A DNA stretch of 64,000 nucleotides. Source: Pseudomonas urmiensis (GTDB lineage Bacteria; Pseudomonadota; Gammaproteobacteria; Pseudomonadales; Pseudomonadaceae). Under the pieces are notes generated by a model. That model made no database searches and was not told the DNA's origin. It saw only the letters and a program-made list of their open reading frames with translations. The stretch lies in assembly GCF_014268815.2 (NCBI RefSeq), contig NZ_JABWRE020000001.1, forward strand, positions 1,617,001 through 1,681,000, read 5' to 3'. Position numbers and translations under genes: made by a program. This document shows, piece by piece, positions 8,950-30,747 of this stretch; position 1 is the stretch's first letter, and every line of letters begins with the position of its first letter.

Positions 8950-9454
8950 CGTTGTCTCCGTTGTTCTTGTAAGTCTGCAGACGGTGCCACGCGCACGGCC
9001 GAAGGCCGCGGTGAAGCACTGTGCGATCAGTATTGGGAGTGGTTTCAGCGCAAGGCGCACGATCGCAAACGAGGTCTGCGTAGAGAGGACGAACGAGCAG
9101 GTGCGGATCGCAGGGCGAGGGAGGTGTGCATAGGTCGTTACCCGATTTATTGAACTTATTATGTTGTGACGCTGGGCTGGTCAAGACAGGATCCGCCGAA
9201 CGTTCGGCAGGGCAGGGAGCGCCGGTGGATCGCCTGTGCTGCGATTCATGGTTGCCCAGTGCTGGGCGCCGATCAATTCGCAAAATTCGCTTTTGTTCGG
9301 TAATCGAACAAAAACTAACTGTTCCGTACAAAATGAATTGCTGAGCCGACTTTACCTGCGAATAATCGATCGTGCCAGGAACCCGCCGCGGTTTTCGGCT
9401 TTGTCGTATTCGCGCAGTTGTCCTGGCTGCGCTCCAATAACAAGGAACTCCAGC
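8950..9454. other. 505-bp divergent regulatory region, MHS carrier / quiC
   Basis: No convincing gene is present, although several open frames cross it. The region holds a perfect 14-bp palindrome GCCGAACGTTCGGC at 9195-9208, the PcaR-like box at 9295-9309 inside a 9-bp inverted repeat, and a further ATAATCG element at 9362-9368. The ribosome-binding site for quiC (AAGGAA) is at 9441-9446. The length and the number of dyads suggest control by more than one protein, plausibly the TetR protein encoded downstream of quiC and an IclR-type regulator encoded elsewhere. Confidence 0.7.
9291..9313. promoter_or_regulatory. PcaR-like (IclR-type) operator upstream of quiC
   Basis: TTTTGTTCG-GTAAT-CGAACAAAA is a perfect 9-bp inverted repeat with a 5-base centre. 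Its core GTTCGGTAATCGAAC (9295-9309) differs at two of fifteen positions from the P. putida PcaR box as I remember it, GTTCGATAATCGCAC. A second copy of this box type precedes aroQ at 30541-30555. The regulator itself is not encoded in the window. Confidence 0.6.
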
Positions 9455-11362
9455 ATGCAGCGTTCGATTGCCACCGTGTCCTTGAGCGGCACCCTGCCGG
9501 AAAAGCTCGAAGCCATCGCCGCAGCCGGCTTTGACGGCGTCGAGATCTTCGAAAACGATCTGCTTTACTACGCCGGCAGCCCGCGCGAGATTCGCCAGAT
9601 GTGTGCCGACCTGGGTATCGCCATCACCCTGTTTCAGCCGTTTCGCGACTTCGAAGGCTGCCGCCGGGACCGGCTACAGAAAAACCTCGACCGCGCCGAA
9701 CGCAAGTTCGACCTGATGCAGGAGCTGGGTACCGACCTGGTGCTGGTGTGCAGCAACGTCCAGGCCGATGCCCTGGGCGATGAACAGCTGCTGGTAGATG
9801 ACTTGCGCCTGCTGGCCGAACACGCAGGCGCCCGAGGTTTGCGCATTGGCTACGAAGCCTTGGCCTGGGGCCGTCACGTCAACACCTATCAGCAGGTGTG
9901 GAACCTGGTCCGCCAGGCTGATCATCCGGCGCTTGGGGTGATCCTGGACAGTTTCCACACCTTGTCGCTCAAGGGCGACCCTCGCGCGATCGGCGACATT
10001 CCTGGCGACAAGATCTTCTTCGTGCAGATGGCCGATGCGCCGATCCTGGCCATGGACGTGCTGGAGTGGAGCCGGCATTTCCGCTGCTTCCCGGGGCAAG
10101 GTGAAATGGACCTGGCGGGGTTCCTTGCGCCAATCCTGGCGACGGGTTATCGCGGGCCGTTGTCGCTGGAGATCTTCAACGATGGCTTCCGCGCCGCGCC
10201 GACCCGGCAGAACGCCGCCGATGGCCTGCGCTCACTGCTCTATCTGGAAGAAAAGACCCGTCTGCAATTGCAACGCGAGGCGCGAGCGGTAGAGCCCGAT
10301 GTGCTGTTCGCCCCGCCGGCGGCCAGTGCCTATGATGGCGTTGAGTTCCTCGAATTTGCCGTCGACGAAGCGGTTGGTGCGCGTCTGGGCGGCTGGCTCA
10401 AGCGCCTGGGCTTTGCCGAGGCCGGGGCGCACCGCAGCAAGGGCGTGCGCTTGCTGCGCCAGGGCGATATCAACATCGTGCTCAATGCCGAGCCTTATTC
10501 GTTCGCGCATAACTTCTTCGAAGCCCACGGCCCTTCGCTGTGTGCCACTGCGTTACGGGTCAAGGATGGCCAAGCTGCGTTGCAGCGTGCCACCGCCTAC
10601 CGGGGCCAGCCGTTCCGTGGCCTGGTCGGTCCTAACGAGCGAGAGATCCCCGCTGTCAGGGCGCCGGATGGCAGCCTGATCTACCTGGTGGAGCAGGCCG
10701 GGGCGGGGCAGACCATCTATGACAGTGATTTTCGTCTTGATGCTGGCAATGAGGCCACCGGTGGTCTGCAGCGTATCGATCACATGGCCCTGGCGTTGCC
10801 AGCCGAGTCGCTGGACAGCTGGGTGCTGTTCTACAAGAGCCTGTTCGACTTCGCCGCCGATGACGAGGTGGTGCTGCCCGACCCCTATGGCCTGGTCAAG
10901 AGCCGGGCGTTGCGCAGCCAGTGCGGCAGCCTGCGTTTGCCGCTGAACATTTCCGAGAACCGCAACACCGCCATCGCCCACGCACTGTCGAATTATCGTG
11001 GCTCAGGCGTGCACCACATCGCCTTCGATTGTGCGGACATCTTCCGCGAAGTAGCGCGCGCCAAAGAAGCAGGGGTGCCGTTGCTGGAGATCCCGCTGAA
11101 CTACTACGACGACCTGGCCGCACGCTTTGATTTCGACGATGAGTTTCTCAGTGAGCTGGCGTACTACAACGTGCTGTACGACCGTGATGCCCAGGGCGGC
11201 GAGTTCTTCCACGTTTACACCGAGCCGTTCGAGGAGCGCTTCTTCTTCGAGATCATCCAGCGCAAGGGGGGATACGCAGGATACGGCGCGGCCAACGTCG
11301 CGGTACGCTTGGCGGCGATGGCCAAGGCGCGCAGCGGGGCGGCGCGTAGACTGGTGCTTTAA
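9455..11362 (+). CDS. quiC: 3-Dehydroshikimate dehydratase fused to HPPD-like domain (QuiC)
   Basis: A 635-residue fusion. Residues 1 to about 265 form a sugar-phosphate-isomerase-like TIM barrel that dehydrates 3-dehydroshikimate to protocatechuate; the four metal ligands known for P. putida QuiC1 are present as E134, D165, Q191 and E239. Residues from about 285 to 590 form a two-module VOC domain like 4-hydroxyphenylpyruvate dioxygenase, whose role in these fusions is uncertain. The start at ATG 9455 follows AAGGAAC and gives exactly the usual 635-residue length. It feeds the beta-ketoadipate pathway from quinate and shikimate. The neighbouring TetR gene and divergent MHS carrier complete a catabolic unit. 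Confidence 0.95.
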   Translation: MQRSIATVSLSGTLPEKLEAIAAAGFDGVEIFENDLLYYAGSPREIRQMCADLGIAITLFQPFRDFEGCRRDRLQKNLDRAERKFDLMQELGTDLVLVCSNVQADALGDEQLLVDDLRLLAEHAGARGLRIGYEALAWGRHVNTYQQVWNLVRQADHPALGVILDSFHTLSLKGDPRAIGDIPGDKIFFVQMADAPILAMDVLEWSRHFRCFPGQGEMDLAGFLAPILATGYRGPLSLEIFNDGFRAAPTRQNAADGLRSLLYLEEKTRLQLQREARAVEPDVLFAPPAASAYDGVEFLEFAVDEAVGARLGGWLKRLGFAEAGAHRSKGVRLLRQGDINIVLNAEPYSFAHNFFEAHGPSLCATALRVKDGQAALQRATAYRGQPFRGLVGPNEREIPAVRAPDGSLIYLVEQAGAGQTIYDSDFRLDAGNEATGGLQRIDHMALALPAESLDSWVLFYKSLFDFAADDEVVLPDPYGLVKSRALRSQCGSLRLPLNISENRNTAIAHALSNYRGSGVHHIAFDCADIFREVARAKEAGVPLLEIPLNYYDDLAARFDFDDEFLSELAYYNVLYDRDAQGGEFFHVYTEPFEERFFFEIIQRKGGYAGYGAANVAVRLAAMAKARSGAARRLVL

Positions 11363-11383
11363 GGCCCGATGCGCGTTGGCTCG

Positions 11384-11476
11384 TTCGCGGGCAAGCCCGC
11401 TCCCACAGGGACCGAGTCGGTCACACAGCTTGCGCTGTGCAGGGACATGTGTGCGGGCTTGTCCGCGAAGAGGTCG
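11384..11476. repeat. REP pair (inverted)
   Basis: TTCGCGGGCAAGCCCGCTCC near 11384-11403 and the reverse-oriented GTGCGGGCTTGTCCGCGAAG near 11452-11471 form an inverted REP pair between quiC and the tetR-type gene. Confidence 0.8.
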
Positions 11477-11532
11477 GCACTGGCACTCTAAGATCCTGAC
11501 CACTCGACCAACAGCGCGCTTCCCTGCTAGGT

Positions 11533-11583
11533 CCCACTCACGGATAATCCCTGGCTTATTCCAATAAACAGCCTGTGAGTGGG
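11533..11583. promoter_or_regulatory. Long-spaced inverted repeat upstream of the TetR gene
   Basis: CCCACTCAC (11533-11541) and GTGAGTGGG (11575-11583) are perfect 9-bp inverted arms separated by 33 bases and end right at the start codon at 11585. Between them lies an imperfect dyad, GGATAA...TTATTCC (11542-11562). Either could be the TetR autoregulatory site. Confidence 0.4.
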
Positions 11584-11584
11584 T

Positions 11585-12256
11585 ATGAGTGATTCTGTAG
11601 TCAGCCTCGGCCAGCCTGCCATCGAAGGGGGGCGCAAGGCGCGCAAGAACAACCCTGAGAAGACCCGCGAGGACATCCTCCAGGCCGCCATCAGTGAGTT
11701 CGTCCAGCAGGGCCTGGCCGGCGCCCGGGTCGACGCCATCGCCGAGCGCACCGCCACCTCCAAGCGCATGATCTACTACTACTTCGGCAGCAAGGAGCAG
11801 CTGTACGTCGAGTGCCTGGTCAAGCTCTATGGAGACATTCGCAAAACCGAGCAGAACCTCGACATGGAGGCATTGCCGGCCGAGCAAGCGATCCGCCGCC
11901 TGGTCGAATTCACCTTCGATCACCATGATCGCAACGTCGATTTCGTGCGCATCGTCTGCACCGAGAACATTCACTACGGCGAATACGTCAAGCAAACCCC
12001 GGCCATTCGCGAAATGAGCAGCCTGGTCTTGCAGGCGTTGGCCAGGACCTTGCAACGGGGTGTCGAGGAAGGGGTGTTCCGTGCGGGCATCGAGGTCATC
12101 GACCTGCACATGCTGATGAGCTCGTTCTGCTTCTATCGGGTTTCCAACCGCCATACCTTCAGCGATATCTTCCAGATCGACCTGTCCGATGAACAGGTCA
12201 AGCAGCGCCACAAGCAGATGATCTGCGAAGCGGTGATCAACTACATCCGCGCCTGA
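11585..12256 (+). CDS. TetR-family regulator linked to quiC
   Basis: A 223-residue TetR protein with an N-terminal helix-turn-helix (about residues 25-70: TREDILQAAISEFVQQGLAG, then AIAERTATSKRMIYYYFGSK) and a C-terminal ligand domain (TetR_C type, from about 85). It lies 223 bases downstream of quiC on the same strand, as in P. putida genomes, and probably responds to a quinate-pathway intermediate. A GTG two codons upstream (11579) is an alternative start. The gene ends 6 bases from the convergent GlxA-type gene. Confidence 0.9.
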   Translation: MSDSVVSLGQPAIEGGRKARKNNPEKTREDILQAAISEFVQQGLAGARVDAIAERTATSKRMIYYYFGSKEQLYVECLVKLYGDIRKTEQNLDMEALPAEQAIRRLVEFTFDHHDRNVDFVRIVCTENIHYGEYVKQTPAIREMSSLVLQALARTLQRGVEEGVFRAGIEVIDLHMLMSSFCFYRVSNRHTFSDIFQIDLSDEQVKQRHKQMICEAVINYIRA

Positions 12257-12262
12257 TCGCCG

Positions 12263-13225
12263 TCACTCGCCCAGCCGTTGCTCGCGCGACGGCGGGTAGC
12301 CGAAGTACGCCGCATAGCACTTGCTGAAGTGCGATACCGAGACAAAGCCACAGGCCACTGCCACTTCCATCACCGACAGGTCGGAGTACTGCAGCAAGCG
12401 CCGGCTCTTGGTGATGCGCAGCTCCATGTAGTAGCGCCGTGGCGAGGTGCCTAGCTGAGCCTGGAACAGGCGGTCGATCTGCCGCCGCGAGCGGCCGCTG
12501 TAGGCGGCGAGCTGGTCCAGGCTGAGGGTCTCTTCCAGGTTGTTTTCCATCAGCTCGACGATGGTCCGCAGGTGCAGGCTCATCGACTTCTTAGCCCCTG
12601 GCCCGACCTGGCGATAACGAGCGCCGGAGAACGACAGGATCTCCTCGACGCCTTCGGCCAGGGCGTCACCGTACAAGCGCCGTACCAGGCCAAGCATCAG
12701 CTCCATGGCGCCGTTGGGGCTGGCGGCGGTGAGGCGGTCGCGGTCCAAGGTGAAGCTTGCCGGGGTGATGCGTGTTTGCGGGCTGCGCTCGGCAAGGCTG
12801 GCGCGTTGTTCGGGGTGGATGCTGCAGCCATAGTCGGCCAGCACCCCAGCGCGGCCGAGGAACCAGGCGCCATTCCACAGCCCGCCCATGGCTAAGCCGT
12901 GCGCTGCGCAGTCATTGAGCAGACGGTCGAGTTCTGGATATTTGAGTGGGGTGCGCAGGCCGCCACAGATGACCAGTAGATCCAACGCTTTGAGCTCGGC
13001 AGGGTCGAGGTCGCTGGCGATCAGTTCCAGGCCCAGGTCACTGAGCACTCGCTCGCCATCCAGCGACAGCGGGGTAAAGCTGAAACTGTCGGCGCGCAGC
13101 AGGTTGGCGGTGACCAGCACGTCCATCGCCACGGTGAAACTGGCCATGGAGAAGTGTTCGAGCAAGACGAAATCGACCCGATATGGCTTGTGCGCCTCGC
13201 CTGTGGCGGACTTGAGCCGCAGCAT
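12263..13225 (-). CDS. GlxA-family (DJ-1/PfpI plus AraC) transcriptional regulator
   Basis: A 320-residue regulator with an N-terminal DJ-1/PfpI-like sensor domain (about residues 10-180, including DLLVICGGLRTP and GLWNGAWFLGRAGVL) and a C-terminal AraC double helix-turn-helix (about 225-320; RLFQAQLGTSPRRYYMELRI and MEVAVACGFVSVSHFSKCY). The fold class includes GbdR, CdhR and ArgR, which sense amino-acid or betaine compounds. The nucleophile-elbow cysteine of enzymatic DJ-1 proteins is absent, as usual. Start choice is uncertain: ATG 13225 begins just before the sensor domain, while a TTG at 13330 would add 35 low-complexity residues. No target gene is adjacent. Confidence 0.85.
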   Translation of the reverse strand: MLRLKSATGEAHKPYRVDFVLLEHFSMASFTVAMDVLVTANLLRADSFSFTPLSLDGERVLSDLGLELIASDLDPAELKALDLLVICGGLRTPLKYPELDRLLNDCAAHGLAMGGLWNGAWFLGRAGVLADYGCSIHPEQRASLAERSPQTRITPASFTLDRDRLTAASPNGAMELMLGLVRRLYGDALAEGVEEILSFSGARYRQVGPGAKKSMSLHLRTIVELMENNLEETLSLDQLAAYSGRSRRQIDRLFQAQLGTSPRRYYMELRITKSRRLLQYSDLSVMEVAVACGFVSVSHFSKCYAAYFGYPPSREQRLGE

Positions 13226-13394
13226 GTTGCTGGTGCTGGTCTTCTTGCTGAAATGGCGTGGTGTGGGCACTGCGGACTCCGCTTCCTGGCTGGCTCGGGT
13301 GAGTGTGCTTGGGGGGCGGGGGAAAGACAACTGTGCCGGTGGCAGGGTGGTATTGGAGGTCGTGTTCAGGCAAGTCCTGGGCTTGGCAGTGCCG

Positions 13395-13476
13395 GCCCCT
13401 TAGCGGGTAAACCCGCGCAATCTCAACAGCAACGCGATCCCTGTAGGAGCGGGCTTGCCTGCGAACAGGCCGGCAC
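13395..13476. repeat. REP pair, one degenerate
   Basis: CCCCTTAGCGGGTAAACCCG near 13396-13415 and the clearer inverted unit GGAGCGGGCTTGCCTGCGAA near 13445-13464 lie between the GlxA-type gene and the small periplasmic protein gene. Confidence 0.7.
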
Positions 13477-13532
13477 TGCCAATATCCATTTTGTGCTTTA
13501 TGCTGCCCCTCCCAAGCACCCGAGAACCCGCA

Positions 13533-14003
13533 ATGAAATACGCCATCGCACTGCTGTTCGCCCTGCTACCGGTCCTGGCCCAGGCCTTGGAGACCGGCGA
13601 CAAGCTCGCCCCCTGGACGCTGCCCGATCAACACGATCAGGCCTATAGCCTCGGCCCCAGCACGCGCATTTTGCTGGTAGCGCGCGATATGGACGGTGCC
13701 AAGCTGGTCAAGGCGGCCCTGGCCGAGCAGCCCCAGGGCTACCTTGAAGCCCGGGGCGCGGTGTTCGTGGCCGACATTCAACGTATGCCGGCGATCATCA
13801 GCAAGCTGTTCGCCATCCCGGCCATGCGCGACTACAGCTACCGCGTGCTGCTCGACCGCGATGGCCAGGTGGCCAGCCGCTATCCAGGCAAAGAGGGCCA
13901 GGTACTGTGGTTGCAGCTGGACAACGCCAGCCTGGTGGCGCAACAGGAGTACGCAGACGCCAACGCACTGAAGGCCGCCCTAGATCAGGCCAAGCGACCT
14001 TGA
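13533..14003 (+). CDS. Small secreted protein, possibly thioredoxin-fold
   Basis: A 156-residue protein with a signal peptide (residues 1 to about 18: MKYAIALLFALLPVLAQALE). The mature part (GDKLAPWTLPDQHDQAYSLG, then ILLVARDMDGAKLV and YRVLLDRDGQVASRYPGKEG) resembles a peroxiredoxin/TlpA-like fold, but I see no CxxC or peroxidatic cysteine at all. It may be a degenerate thioredoxin-fold protein of the periplasm. ATG 13533 was chosen because it begins the signal peptide. It stands alone between REP repeats and the convergent sirtuin gene. Confidence 0.75.
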   Translation: MKYAIALLFALLPVLAQALETGDKLAPWTLPDQHDQAYSLGPSTRILLVARDMDGAKLVKAALAEQPQGYLEARGAVFVADIQRMPAIISKLFAIPAMRDYSYRVLLDRDGQVASRYPGKEGQVLWLQLDNASLVAQQEYADANALKAALDQAKRP

Positions 14004-14008
14004 GGTCG
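13995..14008. terminator. Short hairpin between convergent genes
   Basis: CGACCT-TG-AGGTCG followed by TTT overlaps the end of the small periplasmic protein gene and lies before the sirtuin stop codon. The stem is short and the loop tight, so terminator strength is doubtful. Confidence 0.3.
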
Positions 14009-14015
14009 TTTGCAC

Positions 14016-14765
14016 TTAGCCGAATGCTTCTCTAAGCAGCTGCGGCAACAGCTCGCCCGCCTTGCCAGCGAGGGCAAACTCCCTGGCATGGCCAGCCCCT
14101 GTCACTTGCGGATTGATATGCACCACCCTGGCCCCGGCCTCAAGCGCCACGCCGGGGATCATCGCCGCCGGTTGCACCACGCCTGAGGTGCCGATCGACA
14201 GCAACAGGTCGCAATCGGCTGCCGCCAGAAATGCTTGGCTTAGCGCCTGCTCTGGCAGGTTCTCGCCAAACCACACCACCCCTGGTCGCAGCGGGCCGCC
14301 ACAGGCGCTGCACAGCGGCGGCTCGATGCGCTTGCCGTCGCCAGCGCCCTCGGGCAGCTCCAGTACCGCGCCCGCTGGTCGCGCACAGTCAAAGCAACGC
14401 GCTGCATCCAACTGCCCGTGCAGGTGCAGGACATCCGCGCTGCCAGCGCGCTCATGCAGGTCATCGACATTCTGCGTGACCAAGGTCAGCTTCGGCACTC
14501 GCTGAGCGAGTTCGGCGATCGCCAGGTGCGCGGGGTTGGGCTGGGCCTGGGCAATGCCGGCCCGGCGCATCTCGTACCAACCCCAGATCAGCGCTGGATC
14601 GCGGCGAAAACCTTCGGCACTGGCCAACTCGGCCGGATCGAAACGCTCCCACAGGCCGGTGAGCTTGTCGCGAAAAGTGGCGATGCCGCTTTCGGCAGAT
14701 ACCCCGGCGCCGGTAAACACCACGATATGCCGGGCGCTGGCGAGCAGGCGAGGGTTGAAACGCAT
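14016..14765 (-). CDS. NAD-dependent protein deacylase (sirtuin, CobB/Sirt5-like)
   Basis: A 249-residue sirtuin. It has the NAD motif GAGVSAESG (residues 19-27), TQNVD (97-101), catalytic H116 in LHG, and four zinc cysteines C124, C127, C152 and C155. Y64 and R67 form the YxxR pair that in class III sirtuins binds negatively charged acyl groups, so desuccinylation or demalonylation as well as deacetylation of lysines is likely. It is a single gene, convergent with the small periplasmic protein gene. NAD consumption and nicotinamide release follow from the family. Confidence 0.93.
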   Translation of the reverse strand: MRFNPRLLASARHIVVFTGAGVSAESGIATFRDKLTGLWERFDPAELASAEGFRRDPALIWGWYEMRRAGIAQAQPNPAHLAIAELAQRVPKLTLVTQNVDDLHERAGSADVLHLHGQLDAARCFDCARPAGAVLELPEGAGDGKRIEPPLCSACGGPLRPGVVWFGENLPEQALSQAFLAAADCDLLLSIGTSGVVQPAAMIPGVALEAGARVVHINPQVTGAGHAREFALAGKAGELLPQLLREAFG

Positions 14766-14894
14766 GCAAAGTCTCCAAGGTGCAGGGCAGAGCGGCTGTC
14801 CACTCTGCCAGCGTGCGGCGTGCTGGACAACATCCGAATGAACCCTTGACGCTGGCTGCTACCCAACCCAGTACACGCTCACAGGAGAACGCTC

Positions 14895-15107
14895 ATGGAA
14901 ATCGGAACGCTCTGGATCATCGTCGCCGCCTTTGTGATCCTGATGGAGATCTGGGCCATTTGGCACATCATCGGCAGCGAGCGACGCGCCGAACGCAAGA
15001 TGTTGTGGATTGTCTTTGTGGTTTATGCACCGATTCCCGGGTTGCTGTTCTGGGCCTGGCGCGGGCCGCGGGCGGTCAAGGGCAGGGCGGTACTGGAGGA
15101 AAAGTAG
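14895..15107 (+). CDS. Small two-helix membrane protein (PLDc_N-like)
   Basis: A 70-residue protein with two hydrophobic segments (about residues 5-25 and 37-57) and a short basic tail. The layout resembles the stand-alone phospholipase-D N-terminal (PLDc_N) domain found in many small bacterial membrane proteins: helix, charged turn (GSERRAERKMLW), helix ending in PGLLFWAWRGPRA. A good site (ACAGGAGAA) precedes the ATG. No function is known for such stand-alone proteins. Confidence 0.75.
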   Translation: MEIGTLWIIVAAFVILMEIWAIWHIIGSERRAERKMLWIVFVVYAPIPGLLFWAWRGPRAVKGRAVLEEK

Positions 15108-15176
15108 CATGGGCTTGACCTCGACTTTACTTGAGGTCTGATACTCGGTTGCTCTTTTCATCGATGGGGCGACCTT

Positions 15177-15581
15177 ATGAGCAGTGCATTGCAACTGTCC
15201 AATCCCGAAGGGCTGTACGACCCCAGCGCCAATGCCTATTCGCATGTCGCTGAAGTTCAGGCCGGTAGCCGTTTGTTGTTCATCGCCGGGCAAGGTGGGG
15301 AGGATGCCCAGGGCAATCTCTCGCCGCTGTTCGCCGAGCAGGCACGCCAGGCCCTGGCCAATTTGCGCCTGGCGTTGGCGTCCAAGGGCGCTGGGCTTGA
15401 ACAGGTGTGCAAGCTGACGTTGTTGATTGTCGAGCATGATCAGCAGCGCCTGCGCCAGTGGGTGGCCGAGGCTGATCGGGCCTGGGGTACGCAGATGAAA
15501 CCCACCTGCACGTTGATTCCGGTGCCGCGCTTGGCGCTGGATGGGATGTTGGTGGAAATCGACGCGGTGGCTGCGGTTTGA
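15177..15581 (+). CDS. RidA/YjgF family protein
   Basis: A 134-residue RidA-superfamily protein, near the usual length. The C-terminal signature is recognisable as PVPRLALDGMLVEIDAVAAV and the N-terminal part as FIAGQGGEDAQGN. Classical RidA hydrolyses reactive enamine/imine intermediates; its key arginine sits about 25 residues before the end and here the matching region reads KPTCTLIPVPRLA with arginine shifted, so the catalytic arginine may be missing and the protein may belong to a non-RidA (Rid2-7) subgroup. It is a single gene followed by REP repeats. Confidence 0.88.
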   Translation: MSSALQLSNPEGLYDPSANAYSHVAEVQAGSRLLFIAGQGGEDAQGNLSPLFAEQARQALANLRLALASKGAGLEQVCKLTLLIVEHDQQRLRQWVAEADRAWGTQMKPTCTLIPVPRLALDGMLVEIDAVAAV

Positions 15582-15602
15582 TCGCGGGGTGTCAATACTG
15601 AT

Positions 15603-15703
15603 GTCATCGCGGGGCAAGCCCGCTCCCACGTGGACCTTCAGCGTCATCGCGGGGCAAGCCCACGTTGAAATACTGCGTGGGAGCGGGCTTGTCCCGCGAT
15701 GAC
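15603..15703. repeat. Three REP units
   Basis: TCATCGCGGGGCAAGCCCGC occurs at 15604-15623 and again at 15643-15662, and a reverse-oriented unit GCGGGCTTGTCCCGCGATGA lies at 15683-15702. The third unit pairs with either of the first two. They fill the space between the RidA gene and the small open frame at 15699. Confidence 0.85.
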
Positions 15704-15893: not shown

Positions 15894-15928
15894 TACCTGC
15901 CACAGCGCCCGCCGAAAATGTGACGCAG

Positions 15929-15958
15929 TTCACAAAATGGTTGGTTGCACGGCATAAT
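15929..15958 (+). promoter_or_regulatory. Sigma-70-like promoter of the PAS-GGDEF-EAL gene
   Basis: TTCACA (15929-15934) and CATAAT (15953-15958) are separated by 18 bases, about 78 bases before the ATG at 16036. No other promoter-like pair lies closer. Confidence 0.45.
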
Positions 15959-21059: not shown

Positions 21060-23675
<2,616 letters not shown>

Positions 23676-24036
23676 CCTGGTCCAGGGCCAATCCGCTGCC
23701 AAGGTGTGGTGCCTGAACCGGCCTCTTCGGGCAAGCCCGTTCCCACAGTGTTTGAGCCGTCACAAAATGTGTGCGCGGCACGGCACCTGTAGGAGCGGGC
23801 TTGCCCGCGAAGAGGCCGGCTCAGGCACCACACGCTTCAATGTAGAGACGCTTGCCGCCGTTCAATAGCTGTACGATCTTCCTGTAAAAGCCAAGGCATT
23901 GTCGGTTCGCAGGGCAGGGAGAAACTCGAGCCTGCTGGCATTGTTGCTATGATGGGGCGTGGCCGGGCCTGTCAGTACACCCAGCACCTGTGCACGGGTG
24001 AGCCGTGCCCATCACTCCCGACTTGAGGTGAACCGC
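23676..24036. other. 361-bp region katG to pssA with REP pair
   Basis: The first half is filled by an inverted REP pair. The second half is unique sequence holding a TATGAT hexamer at 23948-23953 that could be the -10 of the pssA promoter, although no good -35 is present. An in-frame extension of pssA starts at 23959 but lacks family similarity. Confidence 0.55.
23719..23822. repeat. REP pair (inverted)
   Basis: GGCCTCTTCGGGCAAGCCCG near 23720-23739 (with a small deletion in the usual CGCGGG) pairs with GCGGGCTTGCCCGCGAAGAG near 23796-23815. Confidence 0.8.
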
Positions 24037-25365
24037 TTGATCCGCAGATCCGTGGCAGTACCGCACAAAGGCTTTGCCCTGGCACCGCAAGCCATCGAGG
24101 TGGTGCCTGATGCCGCCACCTACCGCTCCTGCTTGCTCGAACGTATTGCCAACGCGACTCGGCGTATCGTCATCGTCGCCCTGTACTTGCAGGAAGATGA
24201 GGCCGGTCAGGAGATTCTGGATGCGCTGTACCAGGCCAAGGCGGCGCGGCCGTCACTGCACATTGTCATCGTCGTCGATTGGTTCCGGGCCCGTCGTGGC
24301 CTGCTAGGGGCGGGCCGCCAGCCGGGTAATGCTGCCTGGTATCAAGCGCAGCGCGAGCACCATGGCTTGGATGTGATCATTCATGGCGTGCCAGTGCAAA
24401 CCCGCGAGCTGTTCGGTGTGCTGCACCTCAAGGGCAGCATCATCGATGATTGCGTGATCTACACCGGCGCCAGCCTTAATAACGTCTACCTGCACCGTTT
24501 CGAGCGTTATCGCCTCGACCGCTATCACCTGTTCGACTGTCCGGCGCTGGCCGATGCCATGGTCGAACTGGTGCGCGATGTGCTGGCCAGTACCGCCACA
24601 CCCCGCCTGGACCTGCCAGCGGCGCCATCGACCCGTAGTCTGCGCGGGGACATCCGCCGATTGCGCACACGCTTGCGGCGCATGGCCTACCCATTGCCAG
24701 ACAGCCCTGCGATCGATGGCCTGCGGGTCATTCCACTGTTGGGCATCGGCCGCGGCAACCCGCTCAACCACGCCATCTGCTCGCTGCTGGCGGCGGCGCG
24801 CGCGCAGATCATCATCAGTACCCCGTACTTCAATCCACCCCGCGTGGTGATGAGCGAAATTGACCGGGCCTTGGCCCGCGGCATTGGCGTCGAGATCATC
24901 GTCGGTCATCGTACCGCCAATGATTTCTACGTCGAGCCGGGTAAGCCGTTCAGTGCTAGTGGGGTGTTGCCCTACCTGTACGAAGACAACCTGCGGGCCT
25001 TCGCCCGACGTCGTCAGGCGGCCATCGACAGCGGCCAGTTGGTGTTGCGCATCTGGAATGATCCGGGGCATACCTTTCACGCCAAAGGCTTGTGGATCGA
25101 CCAACGTTATAGCCTGCTCACGGGTAATAACCTCAACCCACGCGGATTTAACCTGGACCTCGAAAATGGTTTGTTGATCGACGACCCACATGGGCAGTGG
25201 CTGATACCTCGCGAGGCTGAGCTGCAGGGGATCAGGCAGCATGCGCCTGTACTGCGTTCGGCCAGCGAGTTGGGCGAGCCCGGCGAGCATCCGCAGCAGG
25301 TGCGCAAGTTCCTCAAGAGGCTGCGCTTGAGCCGTCTGGAGCCGTTGATCAAACGCGTGCTGTAG
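24037..25365 (+). CDS. pssA: CDP-diacylglycerol-serine O-phosphatidyltransferase, PLD type
   Basis: A 442-residue phosphatidylserine synthase of the Gram-negative phospholipase-D type. Two HxK(x)4D motifs are seen: H130/K132/D137 in HLKGSIID and H348/K350/D355 in HAKGLWID. The N-terminal part (RIVIVALYLQEDEAGQEILD, then the GVPVQTRELFGVLHLKG segment) follows E. coli PssA. The start is a TTG at 24037 preceded by GAGGTGA, which gives the family length; this start decides the N-terminus. The enzyme makes phosphatidylserine, precursor of phosphatidylethanolamine, at the inner membrane surface. Confidence 0.92.
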   Translation: MIRRSVAVPHKGFALAPQAIEVVPDAATYRSCLLERIANATRRIVIVALYLQEDEAGQEILDALYQAKAARPSLHIVIVVDWFRARRGLLGAGRQPGNAAWYQAQREHHGLDVIIHGVPVQTRELFGVLHLKGSIIDDCVIYTGASLNNVYLHRFERYRLDRYHLFDCPALADAMVELVRDVLASTATPRLDLPAAPSTRSLRGDIRRLRTRLRRMAYPLPDSPAIDGLRVIPLLGIGRGNPLNHAICSLLAAARAQIIISTPYFNPPRVVMSEIDRALARGIGVEIIVGHRTANDFYVEPGKPFSASGVLPYLYEDNLRAFARRRQAAIDSGQLVLRIWNDPGHTFHAKGLWIDQRYSLLTGNNLNPRGFNLDLENGLLIDDPHGQWLIPREAELQGIRQHAPVLRSASELGEPGEHPQQVRKFLKRLRLSRLEPLIKRVL

Positions 25366-25374
25366 AAACGCCGA

Positions 25375-25394
25375 CGGCCCCGTAGCAGGGGCCG
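25375..25394. terminator. Bidirectional terminator hairpin
   Basis: CGGCCCC (25375-25381), a 6-base loop, and GGGGCCG (25388-25394) lie between convergent pssA and the doxX-type gene. Confidence 0.65.
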
Positions 25395-25400
25395 CGATGT

Positions 25401-25907
25401 TTACCGAGCGTTGCGCGGGCAGTAACCGAGCTTATGCCACAGCCAATGGTCCAGGCTCAGCCAGCCCGCGCCCTTGAGCGCCAGCGGCAGCAAGGCGACC
25501 AGATAGATAAGCGGAAGCTTGAAGTTGCCATAACCCTGGTCAGTGATCGCATAGCCCCGGGCCAGTTCCGCCAGCCCCGACCATTCTGCCGGCCAATGCA
25601 CTGCGGCCGTGGCTACCACTGTCACGCCGATCAACACCAGCGAAGCGAAACGGGTGCCTAGCCCGAGCAGCAGCAACAGTGGGCAGATCAGCTCCGCCCA
25701 CATCGACAACTGCCAATTCAGACTGGCGGGTAGCAGGTTGAAAGGCAGGGGAAAGTTGGATTGGATATCGGCAAACCAATTGCTGCCATTGAATTTTTCC
25801 AGGCCTGATTCAAAAAACTCCCAGGCCAGGAAAAGTCGCAGAGGCAGATCTGCGCTCCAGTCGCCGAAGCGGTTGAGCGCGGGCAGGGCACGGGTCAGGC
25901 TGGTCAT
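25401..25907 (-). CDS. DoxX-family membrane protein
   Basis: A 168-residue protein with four hydrophobic helices, a DoxX/DoxD-like quinone-related membrane family of unclear function. The first helix carries the family pattern [25 protein letters not shown] site precedes the ATG. A tandem direct repeat 84 bases upstream matches one in front of the neighbouring response regulator gene, so control by that two-component system is likely. Confidence 0.88.
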
Positions 25908-25990
25908 TGGGGGTGGCTCCGGTCAGCGAAAAGACTGACTCGGAGTTTGCGCGGGTGGGGTATCTGCAATGTGTCGAGGCGCTGCAGTTA

Positions 25991-26010
25991 TGTATCGCAG
26001 TGTAGGTATG
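25991..26010. promoter_or_regulatory. Candidate response-regulator site upstream of doxX-type gene
   Basis: TGTATCGCAG-TGTAGGTATG is a 10-base-period direct repeat typical of OmpR-family binding. Thirteen of the first fourteen bases are identical to the site at 28121-28134. It lies 84 bases before the DoxX start, on the same relative orientation as the other site has to the response regulator gene. Confidence 0.55.
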
Positions 26011-26027
26011 CGCTTGTAAGCCAGCGG

Positions 26028-27314
26028 TCAACGCAATTCGATCTGGGCGCAGAGCCCGCCATTTTCGCGGTTACTCAACGTCAATGTACCGCCCATGGCC
26101 TGCACCAGTTGCTGTGCAATGGCCAAGCCCAAACCCGTGCCGCCGGTGCCACGATTGCGCGAGCCTTCTACCCGGTAGAACGGTTTGAGTACTTCGTTGA
26201 GCTCCTCGGCAGGAATGCCTGGGCCTTCATCGAGTACCCGAATCACCGTGGCATTGGCGTGTTGAGTGACCTCCAACTGAGCGGCGCCGGCAAATTTCAA
26301 GGCGTTGTCCAGCAGATTGACCAGGACTCGGCGCAGGGCGTGCGGGCGGGTTTGCAAGGTCGTCTCGGTGCTGCCCAGGCGCTCAACCTTGGCCCCGCTG
26401 TCCTGATAGTCGAACACCACGCTGTCGAGAAAGGCATCGAGGTCGATCCGGCACGGCGCTTCGGTGCCCACGTCCATGCTGCGGGCGTAGGCGACGCCTT
26501 CGCGTACCAGGTGCTCCATGGCGCTCAGGTCGCTCCACAGCTTGTCCTTCTCGACCCCGTCGTCCATCACTTCAACCCGCAGCTTCATCCGCGTGATGGG
26601 CGTCTGCAAATCATGGGAGATTGCCGCCAGCAGCTGCATGCGCTCCTTGAGGTAGGCAGCGATGCGCGCTTGCAGGGCATTGAAGGCTGCGGCGGCGTAC
26701 CTGACTTCGCGCGGCCCGCTTTCATCCAATTGCGGCCCGGGCGTGTTCGGATCGAGATTGTCCACGGCCTGGGACAACCGGGTCAGCGGGCCAATCGCCA
26801 GACGCACGGCCAGCCAGGTGCACAGCAGCAACACTGCCAGCTGGATCAGCAACACTACTGGCAACCAGCTGGCCACCGGAACGGTGGCAGGGGTGACGTC
26901 GATGGTCAGCGGCGCGCCGTCAGCCAGGCGCAGATGTGCCTGGAAGTGCGTCAGCGGGCCGGGGATTTCCAGAAACGTCAGGCGGTAGTCCTTGCCGATG
27001 GCCTTGACGATCGACTCGGCCGCCATCGGCGGGTCTTCGCTGGGCATGGCCGATCCGGTTTGGCCAGAGTCGAGCCTATAGCGGTAGGTGCGCCGCTCCA
27101 GTCGCGGTAGCCAGGCCGGGCGCTCGGCAGCCGGGAGGCGATCGAGGATGGCGACTGAGGTGGCGACGTCCAGCTCAAGGTTGCTGAGCATCATCGAACG
27201 GCTGCTGATGTAGCGCTCGTACGCCTGCAAACCGAATGACAGTCCGTAGGCCAATACCAGCCCGGTGAAAAATATCAGTGCAAGGCGCGAGGCGAGGGTA
27301 CGCGGCCACTTCAT
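26028..27314 (-). CDS. Sensor histidine kinase, OmpR-type partner
   Basis: A 428-residue kinase: transmembrane helix (about 9-28), periplasmic domain of about 125 residues, second helix (about 150-172), HAMP (about 172-225), HisKA with phospho-acceptor H234 in ISHDLQTPITRMKLR, and HATPase with N box LLDNALKFAG and G boxes DEGPGIP and GTGLGLAI. The start ATG overlaps the response regulator stop by four bases, so translation is coupled. The periplasmic sensor lacks obvious metal or heme motifs, and the signal is unknown. Confidence 0.92.
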   Translation of the reverse strand: MKWPRTLASRLALIFFTGLVLAYGLSFGLQAYERYISSRSMMLSNLELDVATSVAILDRLPAAERPAWLPRLERRTYRYRLDSGQTGSAMPSEDPPMAAESIVKAIGKDYRLTFLEIPGPLTHFQAHLRLADGAPLTIDVTPATVPVASWLPVVLLIQLAVLLLCTWLAVRLAIGPLTRLSQAVDNLDPNTPGPQLDESGPREVRYAAAAFNALQARIAAYLKERMQLLAAISHDLQTPITRMKLRVEVMDDGVEKDKLWSDLSAMEHLVREGVAYARSMDVGTEAPCRIDLDAFLDSVVFDYQDSGAKVERLGSTETTLQTRPHALRRVLVNLLDNALKFAGAAQLEVTQHANATVIRVLDEGPGIPAEELNEVLKPFYRVEGSRNRGTGGTGLGLAIAQQLVQAMGGTLTLSNRENGGLCAQIELR

Positions 27315-28051
27315 GAGGGCGACTCAAGCAATTGCACCGCTAGCGAGAACACGTAGCCTTCGCTGCGCACGGTCTTGATGCAGGTCGGCTCTCGCGCATC
27401 GTCACCCAGCCGCTGGCGCAGGCGGCTGACCAACAGGTCGATGGAGCGGTCGAAGATGTCCGCCTCGCGGCCTTGGGTCAGGTTGAGCAACTGTTCGCGG
27501 CTGAGCACTCGCTGCGGATGGTCGAGAAATACCCGCAACAGGCGGTATTCGGCGCCACTGAGGGCCACCAGGGTGCCTTGGTCATCAAGCAGGTGACGCG
27601 CCGTGGTGTCCAGGCGCCACGGGCCGAAACGCAACATGCGGCTGCTTTCGCTGATGGTCAGGTTCGGCGGCAGCATGCGCGTGCGACGCAGCACGGCATT
27701 GATCCGCGCCAGTAGCTCGCGGGCGGAAAACGGTTTGGTCAGGTAGTCGTCGGCGCCCATTTCCAGGCCGATGATGCGGTCGGTCTCGTCGTCGCGGGCG
27801 GTGAGCATCAATACCGGCACGTTGCGATGCTTGCCCGCGCGCAACTCGCGGCACAGCAACAGGCCGTCATCGCCGGGCATCATGATGTCGAGCACGATCA
27901 GGTCCACTGCATCGGCCTCAAGGAAGGCGCGCATCTGCCGGCCGTCGGCGGCGATGCTGGTGCGCAGACCATTTTTCTTCAGGTAATTGCCGACCAACTC
28001 ACGGATTTCGCGGTCGTCGTCGACGATCAGGATGTGATCGACGTGTTCCAT
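27311..28051 (-). CDS. OmpR-family response regulator
   Basis: A 246-residue regulator with a receiver domain (1-125; phospho-acceptor D55 in LIVLDIMMPGDDGL, acidic DDD at 11-13, lysine in YLTKPFSARE) and a winged-helix output domain (about 140-238; VLSREQLLNL, DRSIDLLVSRLRQRL). First gene of a coupled pair with the kinase. A tandem repeat 70 bases upstream suggests autoregulation, and a matching site precedes the DoxX gene. Confidence 0.94.
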   Translation of the reverse strand: MEHVDHILIVDDDREIRELVGNYLKKNGLRTSIAADGRQMRAFLEADAVDLIVLDIMMPGDDGLLLCRELRAGKHRNVPVLMLTARDDETDRIIGLEMGADDYLTKPFSARELLARINAVLRRTRMLPPNLTISESSRMLRFGPWRLDTTARHLLDDQGTLVALSGAEYRLLRVFLDHPQRVLSREQLLNLTQGREADIFDRSIDLLVSRLRQRLGDDAREPTCIKTVRSEGYVFSLAVQLLESPS

Positions 28052-28120
28052 CGTGCGGGCCCTGCCTTAGTTTGAGTAAGCCAAGTGTACTGGGCGTTGG
28101 CGCGCTTGCCTGCCGAGGAT

Positions 28121-28140
28121 TGTATTGCAGTGTATCTGGC
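28121..28140. promoter_or_regulatory. Candidate response-regulator site, divergent promoter region
   Basis: TGTATTGCAG-TGTATCTGGC is a direct repeat of TGTAT-N5 with a 10-base period, in the region between the response regulator (minus) and the DUF2790 gene (plus). A GATACA at 28150-28155 also makes an inverted pair with TGTATC (28131-28136). Confidence 0.55.
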
Positions 28141-28272
28141 TTGCTGCTGGATACAGGTGCATGCACGTCTCGCGCTTGACCGACACATCCGCGATACCTT
28201 GCAGGCGTGAAATGGTTCTCGACTGAAGGGGAAGCACCTCCCCATCAGCAAACCGCATGTAGGAGAGATGCC

Positions 28273-28548
28273 ATGAACTTCAAGACTCTGATTAATGCCA
28301 GCTTGGTCGCACTGCTCGGTTTTACGGCCATCAGCGCTCAAGCAAACACCCAGCAGATGGACGATAGCAGCGTGATGCAGTATCGCTATGGTGACCGGCT
28401 CGATGTGAAGAAAGTCCTGTCGGTCATGGATGACCAGAGCAATGCCTGCGGGGTAGTCAACACACGTATGGTCTACCTCGACTCTCACGGTCAGCAGCAA
28501 ACCCTGCAGTACCGCACCTATGCCAGCGGCGGCTGCCATGAAAGTTAA
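28273..28548 (+). CDS. DUF2790 small periplasmic protein
   Basis: A 91-residue protein with a signal peptide (to about residue 24, ending SAQAN) and a DUF2790 domain (YRYGDRLDVKKVLSVMDDQS, then CGVVNTRMVYLDSHGQQQTL and a final cysteine). Two cysteines, at the start and end of the domain, could form a disulphide. Pseudomonas genomes often carry such proteins near two-component systems. The ATG follows TAGGAGAGATGCC. It overlaps the thioredoxin-like gene by 11 bases. Confidence 0.88.
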   Translation: MNFKTLINASLVALLGFTAISAQANTQQMDDSSVMQYRYGDRLDVKKVLSVMDDQSNACGVVNTRMVYLDSHGQQQTLQYRTYASGGCHES

Positions 28549-29074
28549 TCCAGGCGTGCTGCTCAAAGCCGGTGCGGTGGTGCTGGCCTTGACCGGCCTG
28601 GGGCTGGCGGGTCATCTGCTGGCCAAGGACAGCAACGGGGCGATGCCATCGTTGAGTGGCGCCAGCCAATGGCTCAATTCGCCGCCGCTGGATGCACCAG
28701 CGCTCAAGGGCAAGGTGGTGCTGGTCGACTTCTGGACCTGGGACTGTATCAACTGCCAGCGCAGCCTGCCCTATGTCAACGACTGGGCCAGGCGCTACGC
28801 CGCCCAGGGCTTGGTGGTGATCGGTGTGCACACGCCTGAGTACGACTACGAGCATGATGTCGGCACGTTGCGCGAGAAGCTCGCCAAATTAGGCATCGGC
28901 TACCCGGTCGCGGTGGACAACAGCTATCAGGTGTGGAATGCCTGGGGCAACCAGTTCTGGCCGGCGCATTACTTTGTCGACCGGCAAGGTCAGGTACGCC
29001 ATGCGCATTTCGGCGAAGGCGACTATGCGGGGCAGGAGAAGGTGATACAGGCGTTGCTCGATGAGAAGGACTGA
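28538..29074 (+). CDS. Membrane-anchored DipZ-like thioredoxin
   Basis: A 178-residue protein with one N-terminal membrane helix (about 6-28) and a periplasmic thioredoxin fold. The active site is WTWDCINCQRSLPYV, the C-x-x-C form typical of the DipZ C-terminal domain family. Later segments (VVIGVHTPEYDYEHD, VAVDNSYQVWNAWGNQFWPA with the cis-proline PA) agree. It overlaps the DUF2790 gene, so the two proteins are probably produced together; the thioredoxin may act on the DUF2790 disulphide, which is inference. Confidence 0.9.
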   Translation: MKVNPGVLLKAGAVVLALTGLGLAGHLLAKDSNGAMPSLSGASQWLNSPPLDAPALKGKVVLVDFWTWDCINCQRSLPYVNDWARRYAAQGLVVIGVHTPEYDYEHDVGTLREKLAKLGIGYPVAVDNSYQVWNAWGNQFWPAHYFVDRQGQVRHAHFGEGDYAGQEKVIQALLDEKD

Positions 29075-29087
29075 CGCTTCAGTTATC

Positions 29088-29156
29088 GGCCATTCGCGGG
29101 ACGGTTGCACGCTCGGCAAGCCGTGGGCGTGGACCTATCCCGCGACATGGCGCGTC
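29088..29156. repeat. Degenerate REP unit
   Basis: ATTCGCGGGACGGTTGCACG near 29091-29110 with a reversed CCTATCCCGCGACATGGCGC near 29136-29155 is a weak REP-like pair between the thioredoxin and dehydrogenase genes, which converge. Confidence 0.4.
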
Positions 29157-30003
29157 AGGCAAAGCTGGCGAAATGCGCCTGCATCCGGTCGGCATTGGCC
29201 ACTTGGCCGCTGAACAGCTCAAAGGCTTTCACTGCCTGGAAGACCGCCATGTTGCCGCCGTCCAGGGTACGGCAACCCAGCGCTCGCGCGTGGCGCAGCA
29301 GGGCGGTTTCCAGTGGGAAGTAGATGATCTCCGCTACCCACAGCCGCGCATGCAGCAGTTCCACCGGCAGCGGCGTTCCGGGTAGTTTGGCCATGCCCAC
29401 CGGTGTGGTATTGACCAGCCCATCGGCCATCGCCAGCGCAGTGGGCAGATCTGTACCAAGGCGGGCCCGGCCTGCGCCGAAATGCTGATTGAGGTTATCT
29501 ACCAGCGCCTGGCCGCGCGCCGCATCAACCTCGAACAGCACCAGATGCTCGACCCCTTCACCCAATAAGGCATGCGCCACAGCAGCCCCAGCGCCGCCAG
29601 CACCCATCTGCACCACGTGGGCGCGTGGCACGTCGGGCAAACCGCGCCGCAAGCCTTCAGCGAAGCCCAGGCAATCGGTGTTATGGCCGATTCGCTTGCC
29701 ATCTTTGAGCACCACCGTGTTGACCGCGCCGATACCGCGCGCTTCATCGGACAGCTCATCGAGCAGTGGCAAAATCGCCTGCTTGAATGGGTAGGTGATG
29801 TTCAGCCCGGTGAAGCCGGTACGCTGCGCGGCATCGAGCAGACCGGGCAGGGCGCTGTCGTCCAGGCCAAGCTGGTCTGCATCGATCAACCGGTACAGGT
29901 AACGTAATGACTGCGCATCACCTTCGCGCTCGTGCAGCGCTGGCGTGCGTGAGGCCTGGATACCACGGCCGATCAAACCGGCAAGAACACTCTGCTGGCT
30001 CAT
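29155..30003 (-). CDS. Quinate/shikimate dehydrogenase (QsuD type)
   Basis: A 282-residue AroE-superfamily enzyme that looks catabolic. The carboxylate-binding pair is S18 and T20 (SRTPALHE), as in Corynebacterium quinate/shikimate dehydrogenase, where biosynthetic AroE has S-x-S. Catalytic K74 and D110 and N95 are in place. The dinucleotide loop GAGGAG (134-139) is followed by E158 (LFEVD), an acidic residue at the end of strand 2 that favours NAD, and the NRT-x-x-R motif of NADP-dependent AroE is missing. It oxidises quinate to dehydroquinate and/or shikimate to dehydroshikimate. It overlaps aroQ by four bases. Confidence 0.9.
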
Positions 30004-30449
30004 GCCGCGCGCTCCCCGAGCAGCTCTGCGAAGTGTGCCAGGGCCAGGCGATAGCCCTGGCTGCCAAGGCCGCAGATCACCCCGACCGCAATCGAGGAGA
30101 CGAACGAGATATGGCGGAACGGTTCGCGCTTGTGCACGTTGGACAAATGCACTTCGATCACGGGCAGTTCACAGGCCACCAAGGCATCACGAATGGCCAC
30201 CGAGGTATGGGTCCAGGCACCGGGGTTGATCAGGATGCCATTGCAGCGACCGCGGGCGGCATGGATCCAGTCGATCAGTTCGCCTTCATGATTGGTCTGG
30301 CGAAATTCGATTTCCATATCCAGCTGGCGAGCGGTGTCGGCGCAGCCGTTGGCAAGGTCGGCAAGGGTCTCGCGGCCATACTGCTCGGGTTCTCGGGTGC
30401 CGAGTAGATTGAGGTTAGGGCCGTTGAGCACGAGGATTCGGGGCGTCAT
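30000..30449 (-). CDS. aroQ: Type II 3-dehydroquinate dehydratase
   Basis: A 149-residue type II dehydroquinase. Catalytic R19, Y24 and H101, and substrate contacts N75 (INPGA), H81 and R112 are all present. It converts 3-dehydroquinate to 3-dehydroshikimate, the step between the downstream QsuD-like enzyme and QuiC. ATG 30449 ([10 protein letters not shown]) is the family start. Its stop overlaps the next start as ATGA, so the two genes are translationally coupled. Given its partner, this copy is probably catabolic and additional to a biosynthetic one elsewhere. Confidence 0.95.
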
Positions 30450-30747
30450 GGCGGGCATCGCTTTGTTGTTGTTGGATGTCTCGATATTTGTACTATCTAG
30501 TTAATTCGTCAATCTTGAAAATGCATCTGCTGTTTAAAATGGGCGATTATCGAACCCCCGAAAGGGTTTGAATCATCGGCACATCCTGATGACCTGCGCT
30601 CTCGATACTCGCGCGCAAAAGTCCCGGCACCGCGGCATTTGCGGCCTTTCGTCTGCGCACGCAAAGATAAATAGGATTACCCGGATCGACGCCGAGTCTC
30701 AGCTGTACACACAGGTTTATCTGTGTTCCTGAACGAGGTACACCATC
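30450..30747. other. Divergent region aroQ / KGG protein gene
   Basis: The aroQ-proximal half is AT-rich, unlike its surroundings, and contains a minus-strand TTGACG (30508-30513) as possible -35, an ACTA-TC-TAGT dyad at 30492-30501 and the PcaR-like box at 30541-30555. A small stem AACCCCC-GAAA-GGGTTT follows at 30553-30570. No gene is seen. Confidence 0.6.
30541..30555 (-). promoter_or_regulatory. PcaR-like (IclR-type) operator upstream of aroQ
   Basis: Read on the minus strand this is GTTCGATAATCGCCC, fourteen of fifteen positions identical to the PcaR box as I remember it (GTTCGATAATCGCAC). It lies 92 bases before the aroQ start and upstream of the probable -35, an activator-like position. 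The same box type stands before quiC. Confidence 0.6.

Follow-up and report, generated by a model that had tools for sequence, protein, structure and literature searches.

Two conserved promoter elements, a PcaR-type box and a predicted TetR operator, at quinate and shikimate genes of Pseudomonas

Which regulators govern the use of quinate and shikimate in Pseudomonas, and how far does their control reach? The question is raised by a 64,000-nt stretch of Pseudomonas urmiensis DNA (GCF_014268815.2, NZ_JABWRE020000001.1, positions 1,617,001-1,681,000 of the forward strand), called the window throughout, which carries quiC, encoding a 3-dehydroshikimate dehydratase, and, at a second locus, aroQ (type II 3-dehydroquinate dehydratase) with a qsuD-like gene behind it. 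PcaR, an IclR-type regulator of the pca genes, responds to beta-ketoadipate. A first-pass annotation of the window had noticed a 15-bp box of PcaR type before each of the two loci and had proposed a two-locus regulon under PcaR. Here, we present evidence that quiC and aroQ-qsuD are probably members of a quinate/shikimate regulon that spans the genus and uses two cis-elements, namely this box and a 22-bp palindrome that the first-pass annotation does not mention. The most likely role of the palindrome is as operator for a TetR-family protein encoded directly 3' of quiC.

Both boxes lie where they had been reported (Table 1), and the consensus given for them is correct, the P. putida PcaR motif being listed as WWWRKTCGATWATCGSAYRRW (PMC8222616, Table 1). 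Taken within the window only, they are weak evidence: at up to 3 mismatches, there are three matches at two places (one place counts twice, once per strand), where 0.88 would be expected, and shuffled windows reach three matches in 7 of 100 cases. The whole genome (G000; 5.79 Mb) holds 21 matches at up to 2 mismatches, compared with six for the reversed pattern. Five of these have 0-1 mismatch. Three belong to the pca cluster, where they precede pcaR, pcaK and the gene run that holds pcaF and pcaB; the others are the aroQ box itself and one at 2117734, upstream of an AraC-type gene.

Conservation in related promoters is far more telling. In a draw of 119 congeneric genomes (labelled by G numbers), a near full-length quiC is present in 95 and a second aroQ (at least 195 bits) in 82, and the best box within 450 bp upstream of either gene was recorded; two second-copy aroQ rows, for which sequence was lacking, were left out of the box count. 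At quiC, the box is kept with at most 2 mismatches in 93/95 genomes (0, 1 and 2 mismatches in 32, 47 and 14, respectively), and the two misses, G068 and G020, have QuiC identities of 71 and 68%. At aroQ, it is kept with at most 4 mismatches in 75/82 genomes (1, 2, 3 and 4 mismatches in 22, 21, 29 and 3, with 5-7 in the other seven) and with at most 3 in 72/82. The orientation of the box varies among lineages; its presence is maintained. Shuffled upstream regions yield such matches in 0.05% of trials for quiC (up to 2 mismatches) and in about 1% for aroQ (up to 3), and none of 100 unrelated control promoters from the genus draw has a box at up to 2 mismatches. A named set of further promoters, which partly overlaps the genus draw, has the box at 69 of 72 testable quiC and 34 of 35 aroQ promoters, or at 56/59 and 26/27 (up to 4 mismatches for aroQ) once promoters identical to ones already counted are excluded. 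Given this genus-wide conservation, a chance origin of the quiC box appears very unlikely, and there is strong support for quiC and aroQ-qsuD being co-regulated.

Side-by-side comparison of the upstream regions brought out the second shared element, the 22-bp palindrome of about AAATNNACNANNTNGTNNATTT with the core TAACN6GTACA. This core is exact in 81 of the 95 quiC promoters (one mismatch in 13, two in one) and in 76 of the 82 aroQ promoters, the six misses all being aroQ copies of 64-67% identity. A profile of the 89 distinct quiC and aroQ sites has the symmetric consensus AAATgaACcAgcTgGTaaATTT and, at the threshold of 10 bits used throughout, recovers 95/95 quiC and 76/82 aroQ promoters, figures that are partly circular because these sites trained the profile. 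When the window is scanned with it, exactly two matches result, the quiC and aroQ promoters. A search of the whole genome for TAACN6GTACANW gives four exact matches (three for a reversed control), which fall at quiC, at aroQ-qsuD, about 53 bp upstream of a gene for a pyrroloquinoline quinone (PQQ)-dependent dehydrogenase of the glucose/quinate/shikimate family (TIGR03074, 1113 bits against a cut-off of 832.65) and about 106 bp upstream of pqqA, a gene read by eye in front of pqqB. The weight of this pattern is carried by the identity of the places that it marks and by their conservation; the targets are not random.

That conservation extends to promoters outside the training sites, which came from quiC and aroQ only. 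The threshold is reached at 68/70 dehydrogenase promoters, G003 being the clear exception (56/58 at 77-100% identity and 12/12 at 58-60%; from the 71 genomes at or above 55% identity, 70 were examined), at 17 of 30 pqqA promoters (the best 30 of 108 pqqB genomes), at 0/30 pcaR promoters and at 0/30 unrelated control promoters of the genus draw. In the named set, the operator is found at all testable quiC (72/72) and aroQ (35/35) promoters and, with identical promoters excluded, at 59/59 and 27/27. The PcaR box, for its part, is found at none of the 70 dehydrogenase promoters (up to 3 mismatches) and at none of the 30 pqqA promoters at up to 2 mismatches, with one at 3. The shared PcaR-type box of the first-pass annotation thus stands and its two-locus extent does not, because the second element also marks the PQQ-dependent dehydrogenase and pqqA, where there is no PcaR box; the regulon is probably wider than two PcaR loci, and PcaR probably sees only a part of it.

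Further sites accompany related genes elsewhere. Nine named loci without an aroQ match have an extra site downstream of the TetR gene, with a box of 1-3 mismatches nearby in all nine, and in the three of them that were checked this site precedes a gene of the shikimate dehydrogenase family (qsuD-like). In G064, a site lies between an IclR-family gene, discussed below as IclR-Q, and a tctBAC (tripartite transporter) run that is followed by an OprD porin gene; similar sites occur in G078, G012, G063 and G008, the neighbouring genes having been examined in G064. One could still hold that short motif matches, combined with the general conservation of promoters among related genomes, have produced all of this by chance, as a single window with two box places carries little weight when taken alone. 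The shuffles, the unrelated control promoters (box 0/100, operator 0/30), the further named promoters and the sites found out of sample at further genes of the pathway lead us to reject that explanation, for which we see hardly any room.

The two elements also keep a regular distance from each other. Among the 93 quiC promoters that have both, the centres of box and operator are 21.5 bp apart in 86 and 20.5 bp apart in 7, or about two helical turns. The 74 aroQ promoters with both elements and the nine dehydrogenase-type promoters of the named loci without an aroQ match (83 in all) show spacings of 40.5-43.5, 51.5-54.5 or 63.5-64.5 bp in 75 cases, which correspond to four, five or six helical turns with none in between; the remaining eight fall outside these ranges. 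As the genomes are related, this phasing represents a few independent events rather than 75, and its nominal P value has to be read with caution. It suggests that the proteins bound at box and operator lie on the same face of the DNA, either interacting with each other or acting on the same polymerase.

The candidate readers of the box are IclR-type regulators. PcaR has a match in 113/119 genomes, including all 95 with quiC (the match in G034 is fragmented), and the six genomes without one also lack a full-length quiC and the second aroQ; this co-occurrence is metabolically expected and is, as such, only consistent with PcaR as the reader. The box is the same as those around pcaR itself, which occur before pcaR in 30/30 genomes (0-1 mismatch) and within 400 bp after it in 30/30 (1-2 mismatches), counted in the best 30 of the 113 PcaR genomes. 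Identity with the pca boxes, conservation and a PcaR match in every quiC genome would all agree with the model of the first-pass annotation, in which PcaR, responding to beta-ketoadipate, suffices for the co-regulation of quiC and aroQ-qsuD. We nevertheless think that model improbable: the second element is as strongly conserved as the box (95/95 and 76/82, on sites that trained the profile), it stands at a fixed, phased spacing and at two further loci without a PcaR box, and induction by a late product leaves the first exposure to quinate unexplained.

Other IclR proteins might read the box instead. One is IclR-Q (a name coined here), the product of an IclR-family gene about 25% identical to PcaR and located near quiC in many of its carriers, which occurs, at no less than 65% identity, in 52/119 genomes, 50 of them among the 95 with quiC (e.g. 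G064:C1:1017480-1018253). A PcaR-type box with up to 3 mismatches occurs in 21 of 30 tested IclR-Q promoters, and because these carry the same type of box, cross-reading is possible. Two other candidates are a PcaR-like paralogue (about 35% identity to PcaR) near aroQ in G012, G051 and G086, and an IclR gene of the window's genome at G000:C1:1726679, which has a 2-mismatch box before it. IclR-Q as the sole reader is rejected, as the boxes persist in its absence: the quiC box (up to 2 mismatches) is kept in 43 of 45 genomes without IclR-Q compared with 50 of 50 with it, and the window's own genome, whose best match is 48% identical, lacks it. The paralogue near aroQ was seen in three genomes only, among the matches listed, whereas PcaR is the close relative common to all. 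We therefore rate a reader other than PcaR as unlikely; the retention of the box without IclR-Q makes PcaR the most economical reader and, on these sequence patterns, the best candidate.

Two of these genes deserve brief description in their own right. The paralogue near aroQ (loci L265, L266 and L267 in G012, G051 and G086, respectively) is a second gene of this kind in each genome, and the G051 copy scores 298.8 bits with TIGR02431 (PcaR subfamily) and has two flavin adenine dinucleotide (FAD)-binding oxidoreductase genes nearby. The IclR gene listed at G000:C1:1726637-1727491 is about 48% identical to IclR-Q and has a 2-mismatch PcaR-type box at 1726467-1726481, with an FAD oxidoreductase gene behind it and a sugar-isomerase-like gene in divergent orientation.

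For the palindrome, the candidate reader is the product of the TetR-family gene (TetR_N and TetR_C_29 domains) next to quiC, the nearest solved chains of which belong to the TetR family; an in-frame ATG at 11585 is, by eye, its likelier start. An orthologue is present in 101/119 genomes and in all 95 with quiC (partial in G034), and it lies directly downstream of quiC on the same strand in 88/95, with a median gap of 145.5 bp. The best 80 named relatives of the gene are all from Pseudomonas. The palindrome occurs at the TetR gene's own locus, that is, in the quiC promoter, as well as at pathway genes, and its 2-fold symmetry suits a TetR dimer. Site and regulator are also missing together, in two genomes only: G003 has the dehydrogenase (88% identity), no TetR match and no site at either the dehydrogenase (-9.3 bits) or pqqA (-5.1), and G091 has pqqB (93%), no TetR orthologue (best match 33%) and no pqqA site (-5.8 bits).

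A different conserved regulator could bind the second element, with the TetR protein being a bystander or controlling something else. Binding of the palindrome by TetR is, after all, a prediction; TetR is retained in six genomes without a full-length quiC; a LysR-type gene is divergent from the PQQ-dependent dehydrogenase in the window's genome; and a site lies upstream of IclR-Q in 4 of 30 IclR-Q loci. Against this stand the unbroken association of TetR with quiC, its adjacency in 88/95, the joint absence of site and gene in G003 and G091, and the symmetry of the site, and we regard another reader of the palindrome as rather unlikely.

Weighing all of these data, we lean, from genome comparison, towards a two-element quinate regulon in which the TetR protein would control the whole set and PcaR would add pathway feedback at quiC and aroQ. 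The TetR protein would repress the regulon until quinate, shikimate, dehydroquinate or dehydroshikimate releases it, and the same operator at the PQQ-dependent dehydrogenase and, in this genome and the relatives closer to it, at the PQQ-synthesis genes would allow enzyme and cofactor to be induced together. PcaR with beta-ketoadipate would be the most likely reader of the 15-bp box, at the pair of promoters whose gene products feed protocatechuate into the pca pathway. TetR would then be the local, substrate-sensing input for the whole route and PcaR the global, product-sensing input at quiC and aroQ, a scheme that agrees with most of the data. Observed are the two elements with their conservation and spacing, and the distribution of the regulator genes; the pairing of proteins with elements, the nature of the ligands and the direction of control are inferred.

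Several findings pull in the other direction. The argument for TetR control is made up of gene linkage and of the two genomes that miss gene and site together. At five loci scanned where TetR lies far from quiC, no site reaches 10 bits in four and a weak one (11.1) is present in the fifth; and of the six genomes that, as noted, have TetR and no full-length quiC, three were scanned around TetR, with no site in 14 kb in G108 (also without PcaR) and in 12 kb in G096, and one kept in G058. The pqqA promoter is without a site at 10 bits in 13/30 genomes, several of them carriers of both TetR and the dehydrogenase (G018, G020, G043, G052 and G031), and in G074 the dehydrogenase site is weak (4.9 bits) with TetR present. 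The genome-wide count of the palindrome pattern does not rise above its reversed control, and 8 of the 74 aroQ promoters with both elements lie outside the phased range. Finally, the aroQ box is degenerate; it fits the consensus less closely than do the boxes of quiC and the pca genes, which makes aroQ the less secure of the two proposed PcaR targets.

A more ambitious version, which we judge evenly poised between right and wrong, would make the TetR protein beside quiC the master switch of quinate and shikimate use in Pseudomonas, governing uptake (in some species, by a tripartite transporter with an OprD porin), the PQQ-dependent dehydrogenase, PQQ synthesis, dehydroquinase and dehydroshikimate dehydratase. 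Through the helix-phased sites it would cooperate with PcaR, which would bring the signals of substrate and of end product together at the two steps by which carbon is committed to protocatechuate. The prediction is specific: it singles out one protein and one operator, with four target promoters as a minimum, and it offers a hypothesis for a response of PQQ synthesis to an acid from plants. Quinate and shikimate, both of plant origin, feed into the protocatechuate pathway, which has engineering uses with lignin-type feedstocks, and quiC serves in the production of protocatechuate from the shikimate pathway. The promoters would also provide a clean study case of regulators from two families sharing a promoter at whole helical turns.

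Dedicated regulators of quinate and shikimate use occur elsewhere. QsuR of Corynebacterium glutamicum and QuiR of Listeria are LysR-type proteins that respond to quinate or shikimate and are encoded beside the catabolic genes. The arrangement is the same here; the family differs, the candidate being of TetR type. In Acinetobacter baylyi ADP1, the pca-qui operon (PcaU) likewise places quinate and pca genes under one PcaR-type regulator, but the qui genes there are linked in one operon, whereas those of the window's genome are scattered and none is in an operon with pca genes. A study of ADP1 records that four of five pqq genes are upregulated on quinate and that a putative IclR site lies near the pqq cluster (PMC4213383); here, by contrast, the link to pqq runs through the second element and not through the IclR box (1/30 pqqA promoters at 3 mismatches). 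The P. putida PcaR regulon shares the 15-bp core (PMC8222616, Table 1 motif; pca-cluster boxes of the present genome), but the targets described here belong to the peripheral quinate branch and their sites are paired with a second operator. Suvorova and Gelfand (2021), in the portion of their survey at hand, list a quinate/shikimate and 4-hydroxyphenylpyruvate gene set among IclR regulogs (PMC8222616), so the PcaR/IclR half of our proposal may have been predicted already; that portion of the text mentions no TetR partner, no such palindrome and no PQQ link. Titles and abstract openings of the open-licence literature, among the matches listed, contain no PcaR control of quiC or aroQ, the general IclR survey PMC8222616 aside, and no TetR regulator of quinate in Pseudomonas; no other described regulator of quinate use in this genus came to light there.

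The features of the two loci are compiled in Table 1. The quiC box starts 160 bp 5' of the quiC ATG (9455) and the aroQ box 97 bp 5' of the aroQ ATG (30458). A consensus promoter scan did not include the predicted quiC core promoter among its reports and reported no promoter in the aroQ-qsuD upstream region, where the second element adjoins a TTGACG -35-like hexamer (30512-30507). That the quiC box is itself part of a -35 element was considered and is less likely given the conserved TTGCTG-17-AATAAT downstream of it.

Table 1. Genes and predicted regulatory elements of the quiC and aroQ-qsuD loci, in window coordinates
Feature	Position	Strand	Remarks
Major facilitator superfamily (MFS) metabolite:H+ symporter gene, divergent from quiC	7576..8949	-	start at 8949 by eye; open reading frame (ORF) listed to 9060
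PcaR-type box of quiC, GTTCGGTAATCGAAC	9295..9309	+	near-perfect inverted repeat; 13/15 consensus positions
Second element of quiC, predicted TetR operator, AAACTAACTGTTCCGTACAAAA	9312..9333	+	15.7 bits; centre 20.5 bp from box centre
Predicted quiC core promoter	9338..9366	+	TTGCTG (9338-9343), 17 bp, AATAAT (9361-9366); by eye, from conserved upstream regions
quiC, 3-dehydroshikimate dehydratase	9455..11362	+	NF042435 (QuiC equivalog), 1326 bits against a cut-off of 1200
TetR-family regulator gene (TetR_N + TetR_C_29)	11579..12256	+	PF00440 7e-14, PF17938 3.9e-45; predicted reader of the second element
qsuD-like gene, shikimate/quinate dehydrogenase family	29155..30003	-	NF009201, 456.7 bits; overlaps aroQ stop
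aroQ, type II 3-dehydroquinate dehydratase	30000..30458	-	above model cut-off
Second element of aroQ-qsuD	30486..30507	-	21.7 bits; centre 51.5 bp from box centre
PcaR-type box of aroQ-qsuD, GTTCGATAATCGCCC	30541..30555	-	14/15 consensus positions

The genes behind the boxes had been said to supply consecutive steps of the pathway. For quiC and the type II dehydroquinase this is borne out by the model cut-offs; for the qsuD-like product, membership in the shikimate dehydrogenase family holds but any assignment of its substrate is tentative, because it scores 289.6 bits with the equivalog model for the nicotinamide adenine dinucleotide (NAD+) quinate/shikimate dehydrogenase, under the cut-off of 515. 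The gene is presumably co-transcribed with aroQ. The symporter divergent from quiC scores 265 bits with the shikimate transporter model, under the cut-off of 538, and its membership in the regulon is suggested purely by its position, as it shares the quiC intergenic region.

Of the 80 genomes that have both genes, 65 have quiC and aroQ no more than 20 kb apart, always in convergent orientation; the gap is below 2 kb in 54 of the 80 and its median is 1757 bp (n = 65). At 18.6 kb, with the boxes 21 kb apart, the window's genome has the widest gap of the 65. Since the gap is small in most relatives, the two loci of this genome correspond to a single tight cluster elsewhere. The pca genes are 2.2 Mb away from quiC and aroQ.

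Three further places are noted, the first two in the window's genome. Near the pca cluster, an OprD porin gene (L027:1640-3016) has an operator-like site (15.2 bits) beside a 2-mismatch PcaR-type box (G000:C1:3830568-3830605, L027:1568-1605) and is a possible uptake porin of the regulon. A gene for a PcaY-like chemoreceptor (L031:6905-8551) has a 2-mismatch PcaR-type box and an operator-like site (14.6 bits) just upstream (G000:C1:2154827-2154904, L031:6828-6905). The best solved relative of its product is the aromatic acid chemoreceptor 6s18, aligned over residues 161-547 with the ligand-binding part incomplete, and a search of a plasmid collection with it gave nothing useful. It is a lead because PcaY of P. 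putida, according to PMC5449446, binds quinate and shikimate tightly and because both types of motif precede this gene. The porin and the chemoreceptor were each seen in one genome only and are kept outside the count of regulon members. At the third place (L014; L032:6059-6073), a palindromic 2-mismatch PcaR-type box stands about 137 bp 5' of an MFS transporter gene.

Elsewhere in the window, an aminophosphonate cluster at 206-4058 comprises genes for a LysR regulator, an MFS transporter and an aminophosphonate oxidoreductase, and an ORF of 2869 codons at 32074-40683 on the minus strand adjoins a gene with weak CRP/FNR-type matches.

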